This document shows, in pieces, positions 8,173-28,234 of a stretch of 64,000 nucleotides of DNA. How positions within the stretch are numbered: position 1 is the stretch's first letter; each line of letters opens with the position of its first letter. The notes under the pieces were generated by a model. That model saw only the letters and a program-made list of their open reading frames with translations. It did no database searches and had not been told where the DNA came from. This stretch comes from Mycobacteriales bacterium (GTDB lineage: Bacteria; Actinomycetota; Actinomycetes; Mycobacteriales; SCTD01), in the NCBI GenBank assembly GCA_030447385.1, contig JAUJOY010000002.1, forward strand, positions 237,833-301,832, in the 5' to 3' direction. A program made the translations under genes and the position numbers.

Positions 8173-9003
8173 TCAGGCGCTGCCTCGCCGCCAGGTCCGC
8201 AGTCGCGCCATGCCCGAGTAGATGACCACCACACCGCGGCTGAAGGCGCGGTTGCCCAGGGCCGCCAGCCGGTCGTCGCCGGCATAAGCCAGCCCGAGCG
8301 CCTGGTGCTCGCGGAACTGCTTGCGGAATCCGGTCATGCTCAGGGTGCCCTCAACCATGCGGAAGTCCGCGACCACCTGCCTGAGCAGCACAGGATCGCT
8401 GCGCTGCCAGAGCCGCAGCCACAGGTCGTAGTCCATGGAGTACTTCAGAGACAGGTCCAGCAGCCCCACCGCATCGAGCTCCGCCCGGCGGACGAACGTG
8501 GCGGGAGCAGAGATGTAGTTGTTCATGAGGAACAGCCGCCGGGACGCCATCGTCAGCTGGGTGTTCTTGAATGCGCTCACGCCCCTGCGGATCTCGCGAC
8601 CCGAGCCGTCCATGATGTGGCAGCGGCCGGCGGCCCAGCCTGCCTCTGGGTGGCCGTCGAGCGCCTCCGCAATGGCCCGCAGCGCGCCCGGCCGGTAGGT
8701 GTCGTCGGCGTTCAACCAGCCGATGACGTCACCCGAGCTGCGCCGGATCCCCTTGTTGACCGCGTCGCTCAGGCCCTCGTCCGGCTCGGAGGTCCACGTG
8801 ATGTCCGGCCGCTGCTGCAGCAGGTTGACGGTCCCGTCGGTCGAGCCACCGTCGACCACGACGTGTTCAACGCGCGCGCCATGCTGTGCGGCAACGCTGT
8901 CCAGGGTCTGCTCGATGGTGGCCGCGGCGTTCAGGCATGGGGTGATGATGCTGAACGAGGGAAGGTCGCTGGCGCCTGCAGGCGCGCCGGCGGACGTAGC
9001 CAT
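8173..9003 (-). CDS. Family 2 glycosyltransferase
   Basis: FSIITPCLNAAATIEQTLDSV...VVDGGSTDGT...DEGLSDAVNKGI...GWLNADD. Confidence 0.9.
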   Translation of the reverse strand: MATSAGAPAGASDLPSFSIITPCLNAAATIEQTLDSVAAQHGARVEHVVVDGGSTDGTVNLLQQRPDITWTSEPDEGLSDAVNKGIRRSSGDVIGWLNADDTYRPGALRAIAEALDGHPEAGWAAGRCHIMDGSGREIRRGVSAFKNTQLTMASRRLFLMNNYISAPATFVRRAELDAVGLLDLSLKYSMDYDLWLRLWQRSDPVLLRQVVADFRMVEGTLSMTGFRKQFREHQALGLAYAGDDRLAALGNRAFSRGVVVIYSGMARLRTWRRGSA

Positions 9004-9023
9004 GGCTGAAGCATGCCGCAAGC

Positions 9024-10547
9024 TCAAAAGGACAATCGGCCCCGGCGGAGCGGAGTCTTGTTCGGTGGCTTGGTCAGGATCGCGGCCAGGAGCAGGAAGA
9101 CAAGGCTCCCGAGACCTGCGGTGAGGACGTCGCGCCACTCCCCTTCGACCGTTCGGCTCGCCGCGTACACGCTTCCGAAGGCGACGAGCGTGGTGAAGAC
9201 AAGGGGGGCGCAGTTCCGGACGAGCAGCATCACCGGCCGTCGCAGGTGCCGTCCGTGGACCGCAGCGAGGGTTGCAATCACGAAGGTCATCTGGCTGACC
9301 GACGCGGCGACCGCAAGCAGCTCCAGCCGGTCGAACCGGACGAGCAGGAGGCTGAGCACGGCGTGCAGGGAGACCGTCAGGACAGCCGCTCGGACGATCC
9401 CGCCATGCCGTCCGAGCGCCAGCGCCGCAAGCAGCGGAACCACCCCGGCCAGGGACACGAGGACGAAGCCGCTGAGGGCCAGCAGAACCCTGACCACCTG
9501 ATCAGCGTCGGCCTCCGTGAAGGCGTCCGGAAAGAGGTTGTTCAGAACGGCATCCCCCAGGAGCACGCCGACCGCCAACGCCGGCAACGCGACAACAAGT
9601 CCTCTCCGGGTGACCGTGCCGGTGAGGACCTCGAGAGCGTCCGGGCTCCCGTCCCAGGTCTGCGAGAAGGAACCGGCCAGCACGATGCTGGCTGCGCCGC
9701 TGGTCACACCGAGAAGCAGCAGCACCGCGAAGAAGGCATAGGAGTAGACGGTGATCGCGCCTTCACCGAGACCCGCTGCGAGGGCGAGGGTCACCACATA
9801 GCTGGCCTGCAGCGCGGCGTAGCCCGCGGACCCGGCAAGCAATTGCCGCAGCGCGCGGAGCGTGCCTCTTCGGGCTCCTGGTCGCCACCCCGTCCGTGCC
9901 ATCCGGGCAGCCATCAGCCCAGCGGTCAGGAACCCGCCGAGGGCAAGGCTTGCGCTCACCGAGGTGATGCCGAAGGGACCCGCCAGGACCAGGGTGAGCA
10001 GGACGGCCGCCGCGGCACCGGACACGTACGCCGTAGCGGAGCTGCCGAACAGACCATCCGCGCCCAGTGCTGCGGCGAGAAGGCCGGCCAAGAGCTGGAA
10101 CGTGCCGGCCACCCACAGGAGCATCAGCGCCATGGCCGCGGTGCTCCGTGCGGGCTCGCCCAGCTCCCCCACCAGCAGCTCGGCTGTGAGCGGAGCGAGC
10201 CAGACCATGGGCAGCGACGTGGCAGCCGAGAGCAGGAGGATCGAGCCGAGGAACCGGTTCAGCGGGCTCCCGCTGTCGGCGCGCGTCGTCAGCAGCGAGG
10301 GAAGGCTGACACGAAGGCCTTGAGCGACGGAGCTGAGGAAGGCGAATACGGCGTACGCCGCGAAGAAGCCGTCGGTTCGACTGCCCTTGCCGAAGAGGAT
10401 GACCACGAGCAGCGCCAGTACTCCGCCCAGCGCCATCCCTGCTGCCTGGGAGCCTGCTGTCACCAGCGTGTTGCGCCACGTCCCACCGCCGTGACCTCCC
10501 GGTGGGCGACGGTCGCCGCTTGGAGAGTCAGCCCGCGGGTCAGGCAC
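9024..10547 (-). CDS. MurJ/MviN-like polytopic flippase
   Basis: Many TM segments; ILFGKGSRTDGFFAAYAVFAFLSSVAQGLRVSLPSLL resembles MviN/Wzx N-termini. Confidence 0.75.
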   Translation of the reverse strand: MPDPRADSPSGDRRPPGGHGGGTWRNTLVTAGSQAAGMALGGVLALLVVILFGKGSRTDGFFAAYAVFAFLSSVAQGLRVSLPSLLTTRADSGSPLNRFLGSILLLSAATSLPMVWLAPLTAELLVGELGEPARSTAAMALMLLWVAGTFQLLAGLLAAALGADGLFGSSATAYVSGAAAAVLLTLVLAGPFGITSVSASLALGGFLTAGLMAARMARTGWRPGARRGTLRALRQLLAGSAGYAALQASYVVTLALAAGLGEGAITVYSYAFFAVLLLLGVTSGAASIVLAGSFSQTWDGSPDALEVLTGTVTRRGLVVALPALAVGVLLGDAVLNNLFPDAFTEADADQVVRVLLALSGFVLVSLAGVVPLLAALALGRHGGIVRAAVLTVSLHAVLSLLLVRFDRLELLAVAASVSQMTFVIATLAAVHGRHLRRPVMLLVRNCAPLVFTTLVAFGSVYAASRTVEGEWRDVLTAGLGSLVFLLLAAILTKPPNKTPLRRGRLSF

Positions 10548-16010: not shown

Positions 16011-17906
16011 TCACGGGACTGTAACCAGGACTACCTTTGCGGAGGACGAGATTCTGGCGAGGGCATCGGGCATGCAGGGACGGTGGGTGTAGATCTCGAT
16101 GCGCTCCAACCCGTTGTCTGCCGCTCTGTCCACCAGCATTTTGACCTCGCCTGCCTTACCGGAACGATAGCCGCGACTAACTTCATGCCGGGACTCGTTC
16201 CATGTCTGGAATAGGTCGTGAATCCACTTGCTCGCCAGGTAGTCCGTTCCCCTGGAGCAAGCGTCGAAGACCCAAGCATCAGTATCAGGTGACAGGCCGT
16301 TCGGGTGTGCCGAGAAAATGGCATCTAGAACAGCTCCATTGAGTGCGTTCGGCGGTTGACCAGCCGCCATGGGCCAAGACTGCTCTCGTGTTCCTACGGA
16401 GACGCCGGCCAAACCTAGGAGAACGAGCGTTACCACAAGGCCGCTGAAGAACCGCGCCTCTGAAACGTTGGTACTTCCAAGACGCAGTGCATGCTCACTT
16501 TCCAGTCCTGCCGCCGTGGCTCCAGCCAGCCCCCCGAAGACTAAGACTACGTACAACACCTTCGCAGCGTAGTAGCGCAGGCCCGCGCCGGCGAATACCT
16601 GTATGGCTATCACGGCAACAAGCAATAAGAGCGTGGCCACAACGAGGCTGATCAGCGGCAGGGGCCCCGGCCCAACGGAACGACTCCGTCGTGCTATTAC
16701 TGCGAGAGCCACCAACGTAAGCAGCAGAAGCGCAAGCACGATGGCTGGCTGCGGTAAAGGAGTGACACCGGGAGCATTGAGCTGCGTCACCGGCGGTGGA
16801 CCTTTGAGCAGGGGATACGCGGACAAAAGCACAGTCGCCGTAGCTACGACCAGCACAGGCATCGGGCGGGGACGGAATTTGACGAGGTAGAGGAGCAACA
16901 GCATAGCTAGGACCGGGGCAAGTAGATACCATGTCTGCATCAGCGCGACGGCAAACAGACCGAGCGTAGTCGGTAGCCGCCACGTAGAGTAGTCCGGTGC
17001 GGTGAGCAAACCCGCGGTTGCAAGCAGGACCGCGATCGCGACAGTCTGCGTATAAGAACTGGTTCGGATCAGCAGGTTGCCCGGACCCACTAATGCCGTT
17101 AGAGCTATGCAACCTACGGCCACTCCCGCCGGCAGCGGGCGGAGATTCCCGACGACAGCGCGGAGGACGTCAAGACTCAAGGCGACCGCGAAGAACACCA
17201 TCAACGCGTAGAACGCCATAATGAGCACAGGGGCAACAAGAAGGAGACTGTCGGGCGTGGCGCTGCCAACCAGGTCGACGATCAAGGCGACATTGCCGGC
17301 CCACGCCTGTGGATAATTCGACTCAGTCAGGTAGCCGCCCTGCAATACGCTCCGCCGTACGAACGCCAGGTGGTGGGCACCGTCGGTGGAGAAGGAGAGC
17401 TGCGCCATTCTGCGCCCCAACGACGCACCTACAAAAGGGCGATACAGAAGACTGAAAACCGTCAGTGCCGTGCCGAGCGCCCACCAATCACTTGCCGTGG
17501 CGATGCTTCTCTTCTCGTTGGATCCAGTCCGGAGCGCCGGAGCAAGGGCGAACCCAAGAAGGTAGATGGTGGCCAGCGCGCGCGGCGCTACCGGAAGTCC
17601 AAGCACAGCTAGAATGGTGAGTAGTGCTGCATTGAAGCCGAAGAGCGCGATCACGGCGAGGGCCAACCTGCGCAGGACCGTTCTGGCTGGCATCTGCCGG
17701 GACACAAGAACAACGATCAAGGGCAGGGCGGCGGCGGCCACGTCAGCAGCAAGAGAGACAAGACCGAGCACTGCGATCGATAGCCGGACGATTACCCGCC
17801 ATCTCTGGCCTGAGGACGCACCACCACTTGGCGCGGATTTGGTGAAGTGTTCGCAATCGGGGTGAGGAGCGCCCGCATTATCGCGACATTCTTGGGCTGG
17901 AATCAC
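16011..17906 (-). CDS. Polytopic membrane protein, GT-C glycosyltransferase-like
   Basis: 631 aa, many TM; STDGAHHLAFVRRSVLQGGYLTESNYPQAW in the first loop resembles GT-C catalytic loops; start uncertain. Confidence 0.6.
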   Translation of the reverse strand: MIPAQECRDNAGAPHPDCEHFTKSAPSGGASSGQRWRVIVRLSIAVLGLVSLAADVAAAALPLIVVLVSRQMPARTVLRRLALAVIALFGFNAALLTILAVLGLPVAPRALATIYLLGFALAPALRTGSNEKRSIATASDWWALGTALTVFSLLYRPFVGASLGRRMAQLSFSTDGAHHLAFVRRSVLQGGYLTESNYPQAWAGNVALIVDLVGSATPDSLLLVAPVLIMAFYALMVFFAVALSLDVLRAVVGNLRPLPAGVAVGCIALTALVGPGNLLIRTSSYTQTVAIAVLLATAGLLTAPDYSTWRLPTTLGLFAVALMQTWYLLAPVLAMLLLLYLVKFRPRPMPVLVVATATVLLSAYPLLKGPPPVTQLNAPGVTPLPQPAIVLALLLLTLVALAVIARRSRSVGPGPLPLISLVVATLLLLVAVIAIQVFAGAGLRYYAAKVLYVVLVFGGLAGATAAGLESEHALRLGSTNVSEARFFSGLVVTLVLLGLAGVSVGTREQSWPMAAGQPPNALNGAVLDAIFSAHPNGLSPDTDAWVFDACSRGTDYLASKWIHDLFQTWNESRHEVSRGYRSGKAGEVKMLVDRAADNGLERIEIYTHRPCMPDALARISSSAKVVLVTVP

Positions 17907-18036: not shown

Positions 18037-18252
18037 CTAGCCGCAGCTGGCGGTCGCCGTGGCGCCCATGGCCGCGTCAATCTGGTCGCATGTGCCCTGG
18101 AAGGCCTCCTTCACGAATCCGCCGAGGGCGAAGACCATGAGGATGATGACGGCGGCAATTCCTGTAACCAGTAGGGCGTACTCCACTGCGGATGCACCTT
18201 CGTCACCCGGTTGCCCCGTCGGCTTGAGCAGGCACTCCGCATCCGACGCCAT
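18037..18252 (-). CDS. Flp family type IVb pilin
   Basis: DEGASAVEYALLVTGIAAVIILMVFALGGFVKEAFQGTC...SCG. Confidence 0.9.
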   Translation of the reverse strand: MASDAECLLKPTGQPGDEGASAVEYALLVTGIAAVIILMVFALGGFVKEAFQGTCDQIDAAMGATATASCG

Positions 18253-18257
18253 GGGGC

Positions 18258-18461
18258 TTAGCAGGTGCCGGTGATGCTTGTGTTCGTGTCGAAGGCGTCG
18301 CAGGTGGTCTTGAAGGCGCCCTTGACGAAGCCACCGAGAGCGAAGACGAGCAGGATGATGACCGCCGCGATGGCCGCGACAAGCAGCCCGTACTCGACCG
18401 CCGAGGCGCCCTCGTCGTTGTTCTTCTGCGTGACCATGTGCTTGCGGATCGTAGCGAGCAT
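18258..18461 (-). CDS. Flp family type IVb pilin
   Basis: DEGASAVEYGLLVAAIAAVIILLVFALGGFVKGAFKTTC...GTC. Confidence 0.92.
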   Translation of the reverse strand: MLATIRKHMVTQKNNDEGASAVEYGLLVAAIAAVIILLVFALGGFVKGAFKTTCDAFDTNTSITGTC

Positions 18462-18642: not shown

Positions 18643-19290
18643 TCACGCCGTGGGGCTGTCTGCGTTGTTCGTCAACACCCCGAGCTTCAGAGCCGTCATC
18701 AACGCCTGGGTGCGGTTGGCCGCTCCGAGCTTCTCGTAGATCTTGGCAATGTGACTCTTGGCCGTGGACTCACTGATGAACAGCGTTTTCGCCAGTGCAG
18801 CGACGTTGAGGCCGTCTGCCAGCAACCTGAGGACCTGCATCTCGCGATCCGTCAGACGGATCCGGTCTGTGGCCATGCGTCGACGCATGGCGGCGGCGAG
18901 GTCGGCTGCTGCGAAGGCAGACGGTGAGGCGGCAGCGTGCTTGGCCGCGGCCAGAACCTCGGCCGCCGGAGCGTTCTTTGGCACGAACGCTGAGGCCCCC
19001 GCTTCCAGTGCCCCCATGAGCTGCTCGTCACCGGCGTACATCGTCAGGACGACGATGCCCACCGTGGGGTGCCGGCTGCGGAGCGTGCTGGTGGCATCCA
19101 AGCCGCTCCCGTCCGGAAGCCGGATGTCCATGATGATCACGTTGGGCGTCAAGGAGTCGGCCAGCTCCAGAGCCGCCTCGATCGAGCCGGCTTCCCCGAC
19201 CACCTGGAAGGTGGGGTCGAGTTCAAAGCTGCGGCGGAGCCCCTGGCGGATGAGGTCGTGATCATCGACAAGCAGCACCGTTATCGGCAT
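18643..19290 (-). CDS. LuxR/NarL family response regulator
   Basis: ITVLLVDDHDLIRQGLRR, IIMDIRLPDGSG, C-terminal HTH LTDREMQVLRLLADGLNVAALAKTLFISESTAKSHI. Confidence 0.93.
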   Translation of the reverse strand: MPITVLLVDDHDLIRQGLRRSFELDPTFQVVGEAGSIEAALELADSLTPNVIIMDIRLPDGSGLDATSTLRSRHPTVGIVVLTMYAGDEQLMGALEAGASAFVPKNAPAAEVLAAAKHAAASPSAFAAADLAAAMRRRMATDRIRLTDREMQVLRLLADGLNVAALAKTLFISESTAKSHIAKIYEKLGAANRTQALMTALKLGVLTNNADSPTA

Positions 19291-20941
19291 CGTCAGCGGC
19301 CCCCCGTTCATCGTCGCGCGCATTCCCGGCCGGGACGTGGGCGACGCTACCAAGCAGCACCTCGACCCGCGTCCCACCGGCCTGTCGCGGCCGGACTTGG
19401 AATCGCGCCTGAAGCCGGTCTGCACGCTCCTGCATGATGGCGAGGCCGTAGCTGTCCGAGCGAATGGCGGCTCTCATCCCCACGCCGTCGTCTTCCACCG
19501 TGATGGAGGCTAGTGGCGGGTCGACCACGCAGGTGACCCAGAGGTTGTTCGCCTGAGCGTGCTTGCGCACGTTTGCTACAGCTTCTTGCGCGATCCGGAG
19601 CAACTCGACCTCCGTGGACGAGGGCAGTCGTATCGCTGACTCGGTGAGACTCAGGTGCACCGTCAGCCCCGTTTCAGTGCCCACGGTCCGCACGTGGTCG
19701 CTGAGCGCGGTCCCGAGGCCGGCGCTGGCGTCGACGCCGGAGCGCAGGTCGAACAGCGACAACCTGAGCTCGCTGACCAGGCGAGTGACTTCCTCCCGCA
19801 GCCTGCGCAGCGGCTCTTCCAACATCGGCTGCGGCCCAGCTGTCTCGGCTATGAGGTTGTCGAGGGAGTAGCCGAGGAACACCAGCTCCTGGGCGATGCC
19901 GTCGTGGATCTCCCGGGCGACGCGATTGCGTTCCTCCGTCGTCGCGAGGGCCCGGACGTCCTCGAAGATCAGCCCCGTTTCGAGCTGCAGCGCAATGTCA
20001 GCAGCCTGCTTGGCGAGGTCGGCGATCATTTTTGCGGTCCACGCTCGCGGGCGATCGCTCTCAAGCACCAAGACGCCCTGGGTACGTAGACCTAGGGCTA
20101 GTGGAACGACGAGCGACGAACCTGCCGGGCACGTGCCGTCAGTGCGACGCAGTCGGCGGTCGCGGGCCTGTGGTTCCTGTGTCAGCCAGGCCTCCGCTAC
20201 GGAGCTGTCGCCAGACAGGGCCAGATCCCACTCCGGCCGCTGCGTGCCGGCACGAGCCAGCGGCACCAAGCGCGAGCCAGAAGATCGAACCAGTACGGCC
20301 CCTTCTGCATATGGCGCTACGGCTCGTGCGGAGCGCAGCAGAGCCTCCCCCGTTGTCGTGGGGTCCAAGGTGCCGGGAAGACGCCGCGCGACAGTCCGCA
20401 GCCGGCTGAGCAGGTCGTAGGCCGCCTTCTGCGCCGCCTGGGGGTCGACCCGGGCGGCGGTTGCGGCGAGGTGGTTGACCCAAGCCGTGACCAGTCCAAG
20501 GAAGGCGCTGAGCACGACCCAAAGCGCCACCCCGGCGGTGTACTCCCGCAGCGGAGCCGTGTCGCTGCTGACAGCCCGGCCGACAAGCAGGGTCAACGCC
20601 GCAACGCCGGGCGGGATGATGGCGCCGTTGACACCGATGAGCAGCGCACCCGAGAAGGCAGGCGCCAACAGGTAAGGAAGGAAGACGCTGGTCTCGGAAC
20701 CGGTGGCGATCACGGCGACCCCGCACGTGCCGCTTTCGAGCGCCAGTGCCGACAGCGTTCCCAGTCGCGCGCGCCACGGCCAGGCGGCCACGAGCGCCAT
20801 CGGCGCCAGGGCTGCCAACCAGAGCAGATCGGTGGGAGTGGTCTTGGCGGCAGCGAGCGAAGCGCACAGCACCAGCAGGACCGCCCGGGCAACCAGACCT
20901 ACCTGGCTCACCGAGTGGCGCAGGTCGTTGTACGGCGCCAT
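19262..20941 (-). CDS. Sensor histidine kinase (NarX/LiaS type, HisKA_3)
   Basis: TTEERNRVAREIHDGIAQELVFLGYSLD...; HATPase VEDDGVGM; overlaps the regulator. Confidence 0.9.
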   Translation of the reverse strand: MAPYNDLRHSVSQVGLVARAVLLVLCASLAAAKTTPTDLLWLAALAPMALVAAWPWRARLGTLSALALESGTCGVAVIATGSETSVFLPYLLAPAFSGALLIGVNGAIIPPGVAALTLLVGRAVSSDTAPLREYTAGVALWVVLSAFLGLVTAWVNHLAATAARVDPQAAQKAAYDLLSRLRTVARRLPGTLDPTTTGEALLRSARAVAPYAEGAVLVRSSGSRLVPLARAGTQRPEWDLALSGDSSVAEAWLTQEPQARDRRLRRTDGTCPAGSSLVVPLALGLRTQGVLVLESDRPRAWTAKMIADLAKQAADIALQLETGLIFEDVRALATTEERNRVAREIHDGIAQELVFLGYSLDNLIAETAGPQPMLEEPLRRLREEVTRLVSELRLSLFDLRSGVDASAGLGTALSDHVRTVGTETGLTVHLSLTESAIRLPSSTEVELLRIAQEAVANVRKHAQANNLWVTCVVDPPLASITVEDDGVGMRAAIRSDSYGLAIMQERADRLQARFQVRPRQAGGTRVEVLLGSVAHVPAGNARDDERGAADDADNGAACR

Positions 20942-21003
20942 CACGCAGCGACCGTTGCACACCCGCACCCGCCGGACAACGCCACCGGCAACCGGATGCT
21001 TCG

Positions 21004-22014
21004 ATGTGCCTCATGCATGAACGCCTGACGGCTCTGGCCGATGTCTTCGCGAGCGCCGAGAAGCGGGTCCTCAGCGGCGAGAGCGCGGTGGCGCAGGTGT
21101 GGCCCACAGGCTTCAGTCCACTCGATGAGGTCCTGTCGGGAGGGCTTCGGGCCGGGGAGCTGGTCCTTGTGGGAGGACCACAGGGGCTGGGTAAGACGAC
21201 CTTCGCCCTGCAGCTCTTGCGTAACGTGGCAGCAGCCGGAGGCTCCGCGGTCTGCTTCTCCTACGAGCTGCACGAGGGCAACCTGCTGGAGCGCCTACTC
21301 GTCCAAGAGGCGTATGAAAGGGCGGGAGCAGCTGCGCCCACGCTGCTTCAGCTGCGTTCGCAACTGGAGCTGCTGGGTTCTACGCCGACCACGCAGGCGC
21401 TGAGTGACGCGCTGGCCCCGGTCCCGGGGATGGCCGCCGCTCGAGACGCCCTCCAGACATACGGGACGAACTTGTCCGTGCATGCCTCCAGCACGCGCAG
21501 CACCACCGCCGAGGTACTCAGGGAGCTCGTCCTGGGCGCGGTCGCCACCGGGCGCCGACCCGTGGTCGTTGTGGACTACCTGCAGAAGGTCAGCGTCGCT
21601 TCCCGGCTTGCTGAGGACGAGCGGGTCACTCTCGTGGTGGAGGCGTTGAAGGATCTGGCGATCGAGGCGCAGGTACCGGTTGTCGCCGTCGTGGCCGCTA
21701 GCCAGGCAGGCATTGCCCCAGGTCACCGGCTGCGGGTGCACGAGTTGCGCGGTTCCTCCGCGCTGGCCTACGAGGCCGACGTGATCCTGCTGTTCAACGA
21801 GAAGAACGACATCGTGGCCAAGCACCATCTTGCTTATGACCCACGCAGCGCCGAGCGGTTCCGGCAGGTGGCGGTCCTCAGCGTCGAGAAGAACCGGACT
21901 GGCCGGTCGGACCTTCACATGGAGTTCCGCAAGGAGTTCGAGTACTGCCGGTTCGACCCTGTCGGCAACCTCGTCACCGAGCAGCTCGTTGATGGGCGGC
22001 TGGTAGCCGAGTAG
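21004..22014 (+). CDS. DnaB-like helicase C-terminal domain / RecA-fold ATPase without DnaB N-domain
   Basis: Walker A GGPQGLGKTT, FSYELHEGNLLERLL, Walker B VVVVDYLQKV, ELRGSSALAYEADVILLF, SVEKNRTG. Confidence 0.85.
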   Translation: MCLMHERLTALADVFASAEKRVLSGESAVAQVWPTGFSPLDEVLSGGLRAGELVLVGGPQGLGKTTFALQLLRNVAAAGGSAVCFSYELHEGNLLERLLVQEAYERAGAAAPTLLQLRSQLELLGSTPTTQALSDALAPVPGMAAARDALQTYGTNLSVHASSTRSTTAEVLRELVLGAVATGRRPVVVVDYLQKVSVASRLAEDERVTLVVEALKDLAIEAQVPVVAVVAASQAGIAPGHRLRVHELRGSSALAYEADVILLFNEKNDIVAKHHLAYDPRSAERFRQVAVLSVEKNRTGRSDLHMEFRKEFEYCRFDPVGNLVTEQLVDGRLVAE

Positions 22015-22019
22015 TCGCC

Positions 22020-22958
22020 TCAGCCAGTGAAGGACCGAAAGATGCCGATGCCAGCGGGTCCCATGATCACGACGAACAATGCCGGCATGATGCAGAAGAT
22101 GAGCGGAAACAAGATCTTCACCGGCACCTTCATCGCGGACTCTTCTGCTCGCTGGGATCGCTTGGTGCGCATCTCCTTGGCTTGGATGCGCAGGACCGTG
22201 GCGATCGGGATGCCGAGCGCGTCAGCCTGAACCACGGCGGTCACGAAGCTCGCCAACTCTGGGATGTCCACCCGCTGGGAGACCGCGGTCAGCGCCTCGC
22301 CGCGGGACTTGCCGATCTGCATTTCCTGCAGGACGCGAGTGAACTCCTCGCTGAGCGGGCCGTCGGTGTTTCGGGACACTTGAGTGAGTGCCGCGTCGAA
22401 CGCCAAACCGGCTTCAACTGTGATCGTGAGCAGGTCCAGGGCGTCTGGCAGGTCCTTCCGAACCTGATCGCGGCGGTTGTAGGCCTTCTGGTAGATCGCC
22501 AGGTCGGCAGCGAAGAACCCAACGAGCACCAGCGCGGCCGTCGCGCCGATGGACACCAGGAGGGAGGCGCCGAGGACGAGGTAGACAACCATGCCCAGCA
22601 GGAAGCCCACAGCGGCGGAGAGCACCTTGACGGCGAGCAAGCGCTCAACGTCCCACCCCACAGGGCTGCCAGCAGCCTCGAGTCTCTGCCTGAGCTTCTC
22701 AATTCTTCCGGCAGGCGTAAGGCGGCGGCCGAGCGCGACCACCCTGGCGCGGCCAGGTACGAGAACCCGCTGGCTGAAAGGACGATCGAACTCCTCACGC
22801 ATGTCAGTTGGCAGGCCTTCGATCGAGCGGAGCGCCTTCAGGGAGCGGCTCACCTGGTCACGCTCCGCAGTGATCACCCCGACAGTGCCCAAGACGATCA
22901 CGACGGACATGAAGATGCCACCCAGTCCGACGGCGAGTAGCAGGTCAGGGTTCATCAT
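22020..22958 (-). CDS. tadC: TadC-like type II secretion F family protein
   Basis: DLPDALDLLTITVEAGLAFDAALTQV...ADALGIPIATVLRIQAKEMRTKRSQRAEE. Confidence 0.88.
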   Translation of the reverse strand: MMNPDLLLAVGLGGIFMSVVIVLGTVGVITAERDQVSRSLKALRSIEGLPTDMREEFDRPFSQRVLVPGRARVVALGRRLTPAGRIEKLRQRLEAAGSPVGWDVERLLAVKVLSAAVGFLLGMVVYLVLGASLLVSIGATAALVLVGFFAADLAIYQKAYNRRDQVRKDLPDALDLLTITVEAGLAFDAALTQVSRNTDGPLSEEFTRVLQEMQIGKSRGEALTAVSQRVDIPELASFVTAVVQADALGIPIATVLRIQAKEMRTKRSQRAEESAMKVPVKILFPLIFCIMPALFVVIMGPAGIGIFRSFTG

Positions 22959-24898
22959 CAGACCTCCACCGTTACTACCTTCTTCATCCACAAAGATCCG
23001 ACCGTCATGAGCAGGGCCATGCCTCCGAGCAGGATCCAACCGATCGGGTCTGTGACGAGTGGCTTGAGGTAGTTCGGCCGTGTCAGGAGAAGGTAGAACC
23101 CAAACGCCACCGGCAGCCCGCCGAGGATGTAGGCGGAGAGCTTTCCCTCAGCCGAGAGCACCTGCACCTGCCGGCGCAACCGCTCGCGCTCACGCAGGGT
23201 GGCGGCCACGGTCGAGAGGATCTCTGCGAGGTTTCCGCCGACATCGCGCTGGATCCGGATCGCCATGACCACCCAGCCGAAGTCCACGCTGTCCATTCGC
23301 GTGCCGACGTCTTCCAGCGCATCCTCGATCGGAGCGCCGATTCGAGCCTCGATCAGGGCCTTGTTGAACTCACTAGCCACCGGTTCGTTTCCTTGTCGAA
23401 CGACAGCGTCCACGGCTTGGGGTAGTGAGTAGCCTGCACTCAGAGACCCGGACATCAACTGCATGACGTCGGGTAGCTGCGCCAGGAAGGCACGAGTGCG
23501 CAGCCGCTTCTTGAGTTTCAGGTAGCCCCAGGGCCCGAAGACAGACAGCACCACTGCCAGAACGGTGAGGACGATGTTGGCGTTGGTGATGAACAGCACC
23601 AGCAGCGGCGCGCACACGGCGACCCCGACGTGCAGGAGAAGCCACTCCGCCGGCTTGAGCGGAATGCCTCCGGCGTCCAGCCGCTGCCCGAGCCGGGCCT
23701 CCAGGTCTTTGCTCTTGACGACCTTCTCGGCTACCCCCATAGCTGAGCGTGAGATGGCGTTTCGCCCATCGTCTGCCACGGCTTGCCGAACTCGCACGCC
23801 CCGCCCGCCGAGCGTGTAGATGGCCAGCTGCCCGGACACGGCGTTCCGGCCACGGACCGCTACCGCGGCAGTCCCGACAAGGAACAACAGGCCGAGGAAC
23901 ATCGCAGCAAGAGCGCCGTAGAGCGTTGCAGGTGTACGAAGAAAGGCTGGGGCAAGCTCCGCCGGCCGTGGCCCACTAGCCGTGGGGGATGCCGTCGGAG
24001 TGGGAACTGCCAAACCCACCGCGAGCGCTGAGTCGCTCAGCTCTTGGCCAGCCGCCACTGCTCTTATGACCACTGTGCCCTCGCGGCCGGTGAAACCGGC
24101 GGGTAGCGGAGCGGTCACCACGATCTGGCTGCCGTCGTCGGTCGCAGCCTGCCTGAAGGCGGCGCTCAGCTCCGAGGTCTGCTCTGCTGTGATCAAGCGA
24201 CCACCGGCAGCGGCCGTCAGCTGCTCGAGCGTGCTTTGCACCTCGGCGTTCTGGAAGGCGACGGCGTTGAACGCAATATCCCCCTGCGCAAGAAGAGCGG
24301 TGACCTGCGGCAGGGAGGTCTTGCTGACGGAATCGGCTCCATCACTCAGAAGCAGGATCTGCCTGTCGCCACTTGCCGGAAAGCTTCTCGCCGCGAGTGC
24401 TGCCGCGTCATACAGCGCTGTCTCGCCCCTGGCTTGCAGGCCAGCCACGGACGTCCTGATCGGCCCACGATCCGTGGTCAGGGGGATGAGGAGCTGCGCG
24501 GTCGTGGAGAAGGTCACCAGGCCGACCTGCACGTCAGCAGGCACAGAGTCCAAGTAGGCCGCCGCGGCCGCCCGGGCCGCGGTGATGCCCGGACCAGCCA
24601 TGCTCCCGCTGGTGTCGATGGCCAGGATGACGCTCCGCACGACCGTACGGGCAGCCGCCGCGGACGCACTCTCCGTGGTCACCTGCAGTCGCTGGCCCGC
24701 GAGCGTCACGTCGACACTGGACATGTCGATCTGCTCGCCTGGCAGGAGGCCGGCGACGCTGAAGGAGACCTGAAGCTTACCGTCGGCGGGCTGGATGCCG
24801 ACGATTCGGCCTTTGGCTTCAGCGTGAACTGGTCCGGCTTGCCCCGCCGCGAGGCCGGCCGCAACCACCAAAGCGGCGACGGCGCGCCATGGCCTCAT
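22958..24898 (-). CDS. tadB: VWA domain-TadB (T2SSF) fusion protein
   Basis: Signal peptide; VWA MIDAS ILAIDTSGSMAG; LLLSDGADS; then T2SSF LPDVMQLMSGSLSAGYSLPQAVDAV...RDVGGNLAEIL. Confidence 0.9.
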   Translation of the reverse strand: MRPWRAVAALVVAAGLAAGQAGPVHAEAKGRIVGIQPADGKLQVSFSVAGLLPGEQIDMSSVDVTLAGQRLQVTTESASAAAARTVVRSVILAIDTSGSMAGPGITAARAAAAAYLDSVPADVQVGLVTFSTTAQLLIPLTTDRGPIRTSVAGLQARGETALYDAAALAARSFPASGDRQILLLSDGADSVSKTSLPQVTALLAQGDIAFNAVAFQNAEVQSTLEQLTAAAGGRLITAEQTSELSAAFRQAATDDGSQIVVTAPLPAGFTGREGTVVIRAVAAGQELSDSALAVGLAVPTPTASPTASGPRPAELAPAFLRTPATLYGALAAMFLGLLFLVGTAAVAVRGRNAVSGQLAIYTLGGRGVRVRQAVADDGRNAISRSAMGVAEKVVKSKDLEARLGQRLDAGGIPLKPAEWLLLHVGVAVCAPLLVLFITNANIVLTVLAVVLSVFGPWGYLKLKKRLRTRAFLAQLPDVMQLMSGSLSAGYSLPQAVDAVVRQGNEPVASEFNKALIEARIGAPIEDALEDVGTRMDSVDFGWVVMAIRIQRDVGGNLAEILSTVAATLRERERLRRQVQVLSAEGKLSAYILGGLPVAFGFYLLLTRPNYLKPLVTDPIGWILLGGMALLMTVGSLWMKKVVTVEV

Positions 24899-26289
24899 CG
24901 CCGCCCGATCTCCATCCGGAACGCACTCGGGTCGACCTTCACGTTGTTCGCGGCGAGTTGATCGAGGAACTTCGGCCTCAGCCCCATGGACCGGAGCTGC
25001 CCCAAGGCGCGGTTGTCCTCGTCGAAGCCTTCCGAGTGATCGAAGACGAACAGGTCCTGCAGGGTGATGATGTCGCCCTCCATGCCAACGACCTCGGTGA
25101 TGTGGGTGATCCGGCGGCTCCCGTCCTTGAGACGGCTCAGGTGCACGATCAGGTCCAACGCGCTTGCGACCTGCTCGCGGATGGCGCGGATCGGTAACTC
25201 GATGCCGGCCATGAGGACCATGGTCTCGACACGCGCGAGCGCGTCCCGCGGGCTGTTGGCGTGGACCGTGCAGATCGAGCCGTCGTGGCCGGTGTTCATC
25301 GCTTGCAGCATGTCGAGGGCAGCGGCATCTCGGATCTCTCCTACGACGATGCGGTCGGGGCGCATGCGCAGCGAGTTGCGGACCAGGTCGCGGATGGTGA
25401 CCTCGCCGCGACCCTCGATGTTGCGCGGCCTTGTCTCGAGCCGCAGGACGTGTTCCTGGTGAAGCTGAAGCTCGGCAGAGTCCTCGATCGTGACGATTCG
25501 CTCTTCCGCGGGAATGAAGGAGGACAAGACGTTGAGCGTCGTCGTCTTGCCGGTGCCGGTGCCGCCCGAGACGAGCACGTTGAGCCGGCCCGCAACGCAC
25601 GAGTAGAGGAAGTCAGCGACCTGCCTGGTCACCGTGCCGAAGCTGATCAGGTCCTCGATCTGGTAGGGATCAGTTGCGAACTTGCGAATCGTCAGCAGTG
25701 AACCGTCCAGCGCCAGCGGGGGGACGACCGCGTTGACTCGACTGCCGTCCGGCAGCCGTGCGTCCACCATGGGACTAGCCTCATCAACCCGCCGCCCAAC
25801 CCTGGCCACGATCTTCTCGATCGTGCGGCGCAGGTGTGCCTCATCGGTGAAGCCGGCATCCACAGGCGTGATACGTCCAGCCCGCTCGATGTAGATCGAG
25901 TGTGGCCCGTTGACCATCACCTCGGTGACCTCGGCGTCACGCAGGAAGGGCTCAAGCGGTCCGTAGCCAAGGATGTCGTCTGCGATGTCCTGTGAGATGC
26001 GCGTCCGATCGGAGACCGTGAGGGGCGTCTCCTCCCGCGACAGAACCTCCTGCAACGTGCTGCGCACCTTGGTCTCGAGCTCTGACTGCGTCATGCGGGC
26101 GTCGTAGAGCTTGGGCCCCAGTGCCTCGAGCAGCGAGGCGTGCACCGTCCGCTTCAGCTCGGCGAACGGATCGGTCGTCCTGCGCTTCTGCCTGGCGGGT
26201 GCTGCGCCGCTGAGACTCTCCGCCGCATCCTGCGTCGTTGAGTCGACGCGCTCACGCTTAGCCCTGGCTAGCCGATCCGCAAGGGTCAT
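24895..26289 (-). CDS. cpaF: CpaF/TadA family secretion ATPase
   Basis: [53 protein letters not shown]. Confidence 0.96.
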
Positions 26290-27491
26290 ATCTGCTTGGC
26301 CTTCCTGCGCAGGAGCCCGCGACGATCGGTGCGGAGCGAGGCCGGAATGGCAGCATGGCCAGCCCCTGCCGCGGGCAGGACGTGCTGCTCGGCGAACAGC
26401 CGGATGGCCTGGCTGACGGGATGCTGCGGCTCGTCCAGCGCGATGGGGACGCCGCGGTTGATGCTCGCAGGCACGGCTCTGGACGAGGGGATCTGGGCGG
26501 CGATGGTCAGGTGCAATGACTTGGCGACCTCGTTGATGTCGAGCCCGACCTTGGAGTCGGCTCGATTCAGGACGACGCGCCAGCGCTCTCTCGGGTAGTT
26601 GAGAAGCTCCAGTGTCTCCAGCGAGAGCTTGAGGTTCTTCACCGCCGGGATGTCCAGGGTGGCAAGCAAGGCCACCACGTCGCTGATGTCGAAGGCGGCC
26701 AGCACGTGGTCGGTGAAGGCCGGCGGCGTGTCGATCACGACGAAGTCGAATTGGTTGCGGAGGATGGTGAGGAGGTCCGTGACGAGGGAGGCCGGGATGT
26801 GTTCCGCCTGTCCGGGCTCCAGGGGGGCCGACAAGGCGAACAGACCGGGCGAGTGCTGGGTCAGCAGAGCTTGCAGGCCGCTCACGTCCAGCGTATCCGC
26901 CAAGGGCACAGCGTCAGAGATCGTGTGCGCCGGGAAGAGCTGTAGCGCGATGGAGACGTCACCGAAGGCCAAGTCCAGGTCGACGATGCACACCTGGCGC
27001 TTCCCCCCGTCGGCAAGCGTTGCCGCAAGGTTGGTCGACAGCGTCGTCTTGCCCGCCCCGCCCTTGGCCGAGAAGACCGTGATGACTCTCCCCCGACGGG
27101 TCTCCTCCTCACGGAGGTCCTCGTCGCTGTACTGCCTCATGCGGCCGGCCAGTTCGCGGGCCCGACGTACCGCGTGGCTCACGGCGGCCAGGTCACGGTC
27201 GCCGACAACGTCCCGGACGCCGCATCGCAGCGCTTCGGCAAGGAGGGTGCTGTCCACGCGCTGCCGCACCAGGACGACGCCGATGTGTGGCTTGGCAACC
27301 CGCAGCGATTCGGCGAGGGCGAGCGCGGCTTCCATGTCTATCGATGGGGCCACGACGATGACGGACTCCGCTGGATGACTGGCCAGGTGGCCACCGACAT
27401 CCTGAAGCGAGTCCAGGATGTCGGTGTCCGGGCCAATCGCTGTTCGCAGCGTCTCAGCCGCGAAACGGTCGAGGCTGACGATGACGGTCAC
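26286..27491 (-). CDS. CpaE/TadZ-like AAA ATPase (MinD/ParA fold)
   Basis: VITVFSAKGGAGKTTLSTNLAATLADGGKRQVCIVDLDLAFGDVSIAL; receiver-like N-domain. Confidence 0.93.
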   Translation of the reverse strand: MTVIVSLDRFAAETLRTAIGPDTDILDSLQDVGGHLASHPAESVIVVAPSIDMEAALALAESLRVAKPHIGVVLVRQRVDSTLLAEALRCGVRDVVGDRDLAAVSHAVRRARELAGRMRQYSDEDLREEETRRGRVITVFSAKGGAGKTTLSTNLAATLADGGKRQVCIVDLDLAFGDVSIALQLFPAHTISDAVPLADTLDVSGLQALLTQHSPGLFALSAPLEPGQAEHIPASLVTDLLTILRNQFDFVVIDTPPAFTDHVLAAFDISDVVALLATLDIPAVKNLKLSLETLELLNYPRERWRVVLNRADSKVGLDINEVAKSLHLTIAAQIPSSRAVPASINRGVPIALDEPQHPVSQAIRLFAEQHVLPAAGAGHAAIPASLRTDRRGLLRRKAKQI

Positions 27492-27502
27492 GATTCTCCG
27501 AT

Positions 27503-28234
27503 CTAGGCGAAGAGGTCGCGGGCGGTGACACCGGCGTCGGGAGCGACTTGGGACGCGCCGTTGAGCAGCCCGAGGTAGAGGGTGCTCCTCGTCGAGGCGA
27601 AGATGAGCCTCTCCGCGTCTGTCTGGTTCAGAGCCAAGGTAATCAACGCCTTGGGCAACGGCTCGACATTGGCCATCGCAGGGTCCTTGGGAGGAGTCAA
27701 GGTCGTTGGGCCTGCTGCCAGAACGCTCGCCCGCGGTATCAGCACCCGCGTTGCGTCCGGAGCGCCTCCGATCGCGCCGGAGACGAAGACCACCACGTCA
27801 CTTCCTGGCACGACGAAACCCGCGACCCGCTGCTGTGGGACAGCGAATTCCACACTCACAGCCATCTGGCCCGGCTGCAGTGCCAGACTGCTGCCCGCAG
27901 AGGGCGTCCCTGCCGTGCTGAACATCGCTCCCAGGATCTGCTGGCCAACGAGGATGGGTGACACGGCCACCGCATCGGCCAGCGCATCCACGCTGGAAAG
28001 TGCCCCAGGTGTCACGGCTCCGGCCGGGAACTCCTTCGCCTCGAAAGAGCCGGCGTTGGCTGCATCCCGGACCCGTGTCCCTGCCGCGATCGGCAGCTTT
28101 GCCACGAGGACGCTGACCGGCGCCTGCGCTTCGATGGCGCGATCGTCCGCAGACTTGACGTAGAGGAAGACCAGCGTCGTGCCCAGCCCTGCGATGATGA
28201 CGGCTGCCATCAACAGCGCGATACGGCGATTCAC
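27503..28234 (-). CDS. cpaB: CpaB/RcpC pilus assembly protein
   Basis: N-terminal TM; SAF-like VSVLVAKLPIAAGTRV; VSVEFAVPQQRVAGFVVPGSDVVVFVSG. Confidence 0.88.
   Translation of the reverse strand: MNRRIALLMAAVIIAGLGTTLVFLYVKSADDRAIEAQAPVSVLVAKLPIAAGTRVRDAANAGSFEAKEFPAGAVTPGALSSVDALADAVAVSPILVGQQILGAMFSTAGTPSAGSSLALQPGQMAVSVEFAVPQQRVAGFVVPGSDVVVFVSGAIGGAPDATRVLIPRASVLAAGPTTLTPPKDPAMANVEPLPKALITLALNQTDAERLIFASTRSTLYLGLLNGASQVAPDAGVTARDLFA

Follow-up and report, generated by a model that had tools for sequence, protein, structure and literature searches.

A single-domain DnaB-type ATPase is encoded next to tadC in the window, a 64,000-nucleotide stretch of a Mycobacteriales genome, and its homologues are found beside Tad pilus genes in many actinobacterial families. 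Because this pairing recurs so widely, the family, for which we coined the name DBL in this analysis, very probably represents, as far as sequence can tell, a candidate unrecognised helper or regulator of the Tad pilus machine. The fold is known; the association with Tad and the altered motif pattern appear to be new. The initial reading of this DNA, made from the sequence alone (the sequence-only reading), knew of no DnaB-type ATPase in Tad systems, and we found no reference to a DnaB-like protein as part of Tad systems in the open-access literature that we searched.

The dbl gene and its product

The dbl gene (21004..22014, forward strand) codes for a 336-residue protein, classified as a single-domain DnaB-C (SF4/RecA-fold) ATPase from its Pfam match, the family alignment and an AlphaFold2 model. 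We recovered every element described in the sequence-only reading, namely the open reading frame of about 336 codons, the Walker A motif GGPQGLGKTT, the Walker B motif DYLQ (within VVVDYLQ), the GSSALAYEADVILLF stretch and the SVEKNRTG segment. Residues 34-312 match Pfam DnaB_C (3.2e-25, 89 bits for a cut-off of 27), and Pfam detects the ATPase domain only. The absence of the DnaB N-domain was likewise borne out: ahead of the RecA fold there are about 33 residues, modelled as one helix (residues 2-23) which, with the linker (21004..21102, forward strand), sits where DnaB has its linker helix according to the AlphaFold2 secondary structure and to Foldseek alignments with DnaB over 310-320 columns. 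The model (pLDDT 79.8, pTM 0.80) consists of this helix followed by the RecA fold, and its best PDB match by Foldseek is the DnaB-ssDNA complex 4esv (E 3e-17), with the proviso that the input alignment was composed of phage DnaBs and that the model may lean towards DnaB. Sequence-model scores rank DnaB first (88.7 bits), followed by KaiC-type models (~31), RadA (26.8) and ArlH (19.2). A search of NCBIfam found no model that names the DBL family.

The catalytic motifs, all on the forward strand, are strictly maintained in the family. Motif H1/Walker A (21172..21201; K64, T65) has the Lys in 20/20 members and Thr or Ser in 20/20, motif H1a (FSYELH, 21256..21273) has the catalytic Glu, E88, in 20/20, and motif H2/Walker B (VVDYLQK, 21568..21588) has the Asp, D191, in 20/20. 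The H4 region (ELRGSSALAYE, 21745..21777) was located from the family alignment. The EKNRTG segment (21886..21903) harbours the beta-hairpin Lys K296 and the arginine finger R298, and its Lys, Arg and Gly residues are present in all 20 members. Judging from these residues, the retained set (Walker A Lys, catalytic Glu, Walker B Asp and K-x-R-x-G) is what a ring ATPase with shared active sites would require, and the catalytic Glu together with the arginine finger suggests real ATP turnover.

Motif H3 is altered. In RecA and DnaB proteins, the Gln of this motif is a gamma-phosphate sensor that couples the ATP state to DNA. At the corresponding position, around A231 (21685..21702), where DnaB has an invariant Gln, all 20 DBL proteins have Ala, Ser or Gly, whereas the Gln is nearly invariant at the same alignment column in 19 phage DnaB relatives. 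The Arg of H3 is retained in just 4/20 DBL proteins. The net charge of loop I, which follows Walker B, is zero or negative in 19/20, compared with +1 in the DnaB of the same genome, the one DnaB compared.

That genome contains one full-length DBL copy and a separate, ordinary DnaB with its N-domain (L002), and we therefore rejected DBL as the replicative DnaB of its own genome. As a side observation, the N- and C-domains of this dnaB gene (890-2271 of L002, contig C9) lie in different frames, perhaps because assembly introduced an indel into this essential gene.

Extent of the family

Nineteen homologues encoded in other genomes align with the window protein along its length at 29-50% identity, and six homologue pairs have dN/dS values of 0.02-0.40, indicating purifying selection; dbl is therefore more than a chance open reading frame. 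We built a search profile from the window protein and two homologues of the same family. It revealed DBL in 20 of 399 genomes across Actinomycetota, in 15 genera. DBL was also found in 16 of the 66 genomes of one other class and, in the same class as the window, in 5 of the 119 genomes of the order of G381 (see below). A single-sequence scan of genome contigs with DBL returned nothing but a stray Pseudomonas match. In-frame stops are present in three copies (L039 3123-4307, L049 1-861 and L226 1464-1826), which are possibly decaying genes or assembly errors.

Homologues of DBL are not mostly prophage or plasmid genes devoid of a Tad tie, as phage and plasmid relatives are either about 30% identical at most over most of the protein or yield short matches. 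A phage or plasmid origin of dbl was rejected on this basis. One entry deposited as 'Bacteriophage sp.' (MT839844.1, locus L090) encodes a protein with 41% identity, and it was dismissed as a phage relative: it is bacterial DNA with the gene order of G381 and G794, apparently a piece of a bacterial chromosome.

Linkage of dbl to Tad genes

The Tad setting proposed for dbl in the sequence-only reading was confirmed, with genes for CpaB, CpaE, CpaF, TadB, TadC and two Flp pilins, all on the reverse strand. Beyond the 3' end of dbl lie tadC (22020..22958; T2SSF 2e-20 and TadC profile), tadB (VWA and T2SSF domains by Pfam, covering at least 22958..24529), the motor ATPase gene cpaF/tadA (24895..26289; T2SSE 2e-65), cpaE/tadZ (26286..27491; ParA/MinD-type ATPase domain) and cpaB/rcpC (27503..28234; RcpC 8e-15). 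The stop codons of dbl (22014) and of the convergent tadC (22020) are separated by 5 bp, as initially described. On the other side is a divergent histidine kinase gene (19262..20968, reverse strand; HisKA_3, GAF and HATPase_c by Pfam), with orthologues placed likewise, divergent from dbl, in L221 and L222. The reported gap of 62 bp between dbl and the kinase holds for the ATG at 20941 and shrinks to 35 bp if the upstream GTG at 20968 is the start. Next come a NarL-type response regulator gene (18643..19425, reverse strand; Response_reg and GerE), with orthologues beside dbl in L035, L221 and L222, and the genes for Flp pilin 2 (18258..18461, reverse strand; GASAVEYGLLVAAIAAVIILLVFALGG) and Flp pilin 1 (18037..18252, reverse strand), both identified by sequence and by matches to the Flp genes of related loci. 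Within the Tad region, between a tadE-like gene and the flp genes, 16011-17906 (reverse strand) codes for a large hydrophobic protein of 631 residues, probably a polytopic membrane protein.

We read 30 dbl loci, six of which are uninformative, with a contig that is short or broken beside the gene (L032, L036, L047, L049, L050 and L226). Twenty-one of the 24 informative loci carry Tad genes on the contig that bears dbl, the evidence in L039 and L225 being a Flp pilin gene. The recurrent co-occurrence with Tad genes that had been put forward as a test of the association was thus found, and the linked loci span at least eight family-level groups of Actinomycetota.

Two arrangements were identified. 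One has cpaB-cpaE-cpaF-tadB-tadC-dbl on one strand, the distance from the tadC stop to the dbl start being -20 to +28 bp in the nine same-strand loci measured. In the other, that of the window, dbl and tadC converge, and the kinase, regulator and flp genes lie on the far side of dbl; this order recurs in L221 and L222 with one extra gene. Convergent dbl and tadC genes with an extra gene between them are also found in L008, L033 and L035. A gene intervenes between tadC and dbl in L008 (1406-2449), L033 (17186-18388), L035 (10433-11299), L037 (4908-8387), L221 (near 8797-9366) and L222 (near 8830-9318). The C-terminal part of its product is conserved (30-38% identity) and has a GAF-like look, and the N-terminus looks receiver-like; four copies tested gave no Pfam match, and the gene is missing from the window.

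At the genome level, TadC is present in 14 of the 15 high-quality dbl genomes, as against 129 of 304 high-quality genomes of the phylum overall (one-sided Fisher p = 3.8e-5). In G466, the sole high-quality dbl genome lacking it, dbl is partial, lies at the edge of a contig and contains an in-frame stop. DBL and TadC distances are correlated (Mantel r 0.725, n = 15, with 0/5000 permutations as high), which shows co-inheritance, not contact, and to which shared genome ancestry contributes.

The three informative loci that lack linked Tad genes share one site, with the gene order ALDH-dbl-dxr-rseP-ispG (L034 8941-12206, L223 9421-12224 and L090, i.e. MT839844.1, 2-6847). They belong to G381, its congener G794 and the above-mentioned contig deposited as phage, which is of faecal origin. 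G381 and G794, the two whole genomes among these exceptions, encode TadC elsewhere in the genome, and all five dbl genomes in the order of G381 carry TadC. The tree groups G381 with the MT839844.1 contig (support 92/87). Profile searches of G434 and G598, from the same family as G381 and G794, gave matches to neither DBL nor TadC. The exceptions look like one relocation event with Tad retained in trans.

DBL as an accessory component

The sequence-only reading had proposed a regulatory or assembly ATPase of DnaB type tied to Tad. The tie to Tad stood, given the 21/24 linked loci, and the proposal needs refinement in that DBL is an accessory, not a core, Tad component. TadC is found in 176 of the 399 genomes of the phylum and dbl in 20, and a set of 20 TadC loci that we fetched yielded no match to the DBL profile. 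One of these 20 (L122), with a closely related TadC, is in G666, a genome whose other Tad locus does have dbl. Since many Tad loci lack dbl and still have CpaE, DBL appears dispensable for building the machine.

Sampled relatives in the genus of the window mostly lack Tad altogether, and G001 has tadC without dbl; the Tad loci of this genus and family gave no match to the DBL profile. The G001 locus (L132, 7542-10836) harbours tadC, tadB and a cpaE fragment with no cpaF match upstream, suggesting a truncated or rearranged Tad locus. The idea that dbl marks one TadC lineage was not supported, as its occurrence is dispersed across that tree (10 changes on the TadC tree, for a mean of 11.8 after shuffling). 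Repeated loss is the simplest reading of this scatter.

Possible functions of DBL

The explanation that we prefer, at a probability that stops a little short of an even chance, is by analogy with ArlH/FlaH: dbl may code for an accessory Tad protein, a DnaB-derived oligomeric ATPase that regulates the CpaF-TadB-TadC motor. A DnaB-type helicase ancestor would have given rise to DBL by loss of the N-domain that binds primase and loader and of the parts of the core that couple to DNA. DBL would form a homo-oligomer, probably a hexameric ring, on the cytoplasmic side of the pilus base, where it would contact CpaF and/or TadB/TadC. Its ATP cycle might then set the timing or direction of the motor, i.e. 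assembly, retraction or arrest, as proposed for the action of ArlH/FlaH on ArlI/ArlJ, and the neighbouring kinase and regulator would probably set expression of the module. The Tad linkage in 21/24 loci, the tight spacing to tadC, the tracking distances and the presence of TadC in 14/15 genomes argue for such a motor regulator, as do the retained catalytic residues, the loss of the H3 Gln in 20/20 members and the neutral or acidic loop I in 19/20.

Precedents are provided by ArlH/FlaH, the KaiC-family ATPases of archaeal type IV pili and the Epd pili. ArlH is a RecA-fold, KaiC-like protein that binds and stimulates the ArlI motor and does not hydrolyse ATP (PMC8978795), KaiC-family ATPases are encoded in several archaeal type IV pilus operons (PMC4858521), and Tad systems are derived from archaea, with the related Epd pili carrying FlaH as a second ATPase (PMC6668835). 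DBL resembles these systems in that a gene for a RecA-fold ATPase lies beside those for T2SSE/T2SSF-type motor components (PMC8978795, PMC4858521). However, DBL is nearest to DnaB in sequence (88.7 bits) and not to ArlH (19 bits, far below the NF052589 cut-off of 215), belongs to the DnaB branch, and keeps the catalytic Glu and arginine finger, which suggest ATP turnover, unlike the non-hydrolysing ArlH (PMC8978795). Under this model, DBL would have been recruited independently, out of the DnaB branch, and would work in an ArlH-like manner without membership of the ArlH family. Also at odds with motor regulation are the many Tad loci without dbl, including a second locus in the same genome (G666, L122), and the separation of dbl from the Tad locus in G381 and G794. 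We are more doubtful that DBL is an auxiliary Tad motor or clutch co-opted from the DnaB lineage in Actinomycetota, an independent counterpart of ArlH coupled to CpaF/TadC that switches between extension and retraction. TadZ/CpaE is also a second ATPase of Tad loci, but it has the ParA/MinD fold and is present alongside DBL in the window and in complete dbl loci.

The main rival, which we consider unlikely, is that DBL is a DNA helicase or translocase acting on DNA taken up via Tad pili, in a RadA-like or motor role in natural transformation. Its nearest relatives by fold and sequence are indeed DnaB helicases (SF4; PF03796, TIGR00665), with which it shares the RecA-fold C-domain, the linker-like N-terminal helix, motifs H1, H1a and H2, the K-x-R-x-G finger and the best fold match (4esv), and a DnaB RecA core without the N-domain can unwind DNA, as shown by Wildcat Gp80 (PMC4523182). 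By contrast with DnaB, DBL lacks the N-terminal domain and the H3 Gln, has a longer insert ahead of the finger, scores far below the TIGR00665 cut-off (88.7 for 385.25 bits) and is linked to Tad, not to replication. Mycobacteriophage D29 Gp65, the N-terminally truncated Wildcat Gp80 and plasmid RSF1010 RepA similarly consist of the RecA core alone (PMC4523182), but they are phage or plasmid DNA enzymes. The KNR-x-G segment and DnaB-type fold of DBL also recall the KNRFG-containing RadA/Sms, a DnaB-type transformation helicase with a role in Firmicutes (PMC5512693); nevertheless, DBL has KNRTG, scores 26.8 bits for a RadA cut-off of 403, and lacks both the C4 zinc motif and the Lon-like C-terminal domain. 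Transformation of Micrococcus luteus requires Tad pili (PMC4322843), and in that organism a gene for an FtsK-type translocase, located next to tad-1, is important too (PMC8467076). Most dbl genomes, including that of the window, have comEC, but this gene is nearly everywhere and equally common without dbl, making it uninformative, and in G445 and G530 (96-97% complete) dbl is present and no comEC was found. Loss of the H3 Gln in all members, retention of the H3 Arg in only four and the charge of loop I argue against DNA coupling, and no recurrent DNA-uptake gene was found beside dbl in the loci read.

It is also improbable that DBL is a KaiC-like switch with expression of the locus, rather than the motor, as its target, acting through the adjacent histidine kinase and response regulator and, in some loci, the GAF-like protein. 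Such a role is consistent with the kinase and regulator genes flanking dbl in the window, L035, L046, L047, L221, L222 and L225, with the conserved GAF-like/receiver-like gene between tadC and dbl in the six loci listed above, and with the KaiC-family matches of DBL, which are present but weak. However, several loci from the class of G371 (L040, L041, L044, L045 and L048) have dbl coupled to tadC and no kinase gene alongside, and we identified neither a phosphorylation site nor an output partner. Finally, DBL might be the product of a helicase-derived gene of another function that hitch-hikes in the Tad locus. The patchy presence of dbl (20/399 genomes, for 176/399 with TadC), the lineage with dbl at the ALDH-dxr-rseP-ispG locus and the in-frame stops in some copies (L039, L049, L226) would fit; we nonetheless regard it as highly improbable in view of the Tad linkage, which takes two arrangements and holds in 21/24 loci, the tight tadC spacing, the congruent distances and the presence of Tad in trans in the relocated lineage.

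Implications for Tad pili

Tad pili are both extended and retracted by one motor ATPase, CpaF, and how it does so is an open problem. A second conserved, putatively ring-type ATPase encoded beside tadC in part of Actinomycetota offers a specific candidate regulator for this motor. If this is true, a replication-helicase fold would have been moved to a membrane nanomachine, in parallel with ArlH in archaella; should DBL prove to be a helicase instead, it would connect Tad pili with DNA uptake.
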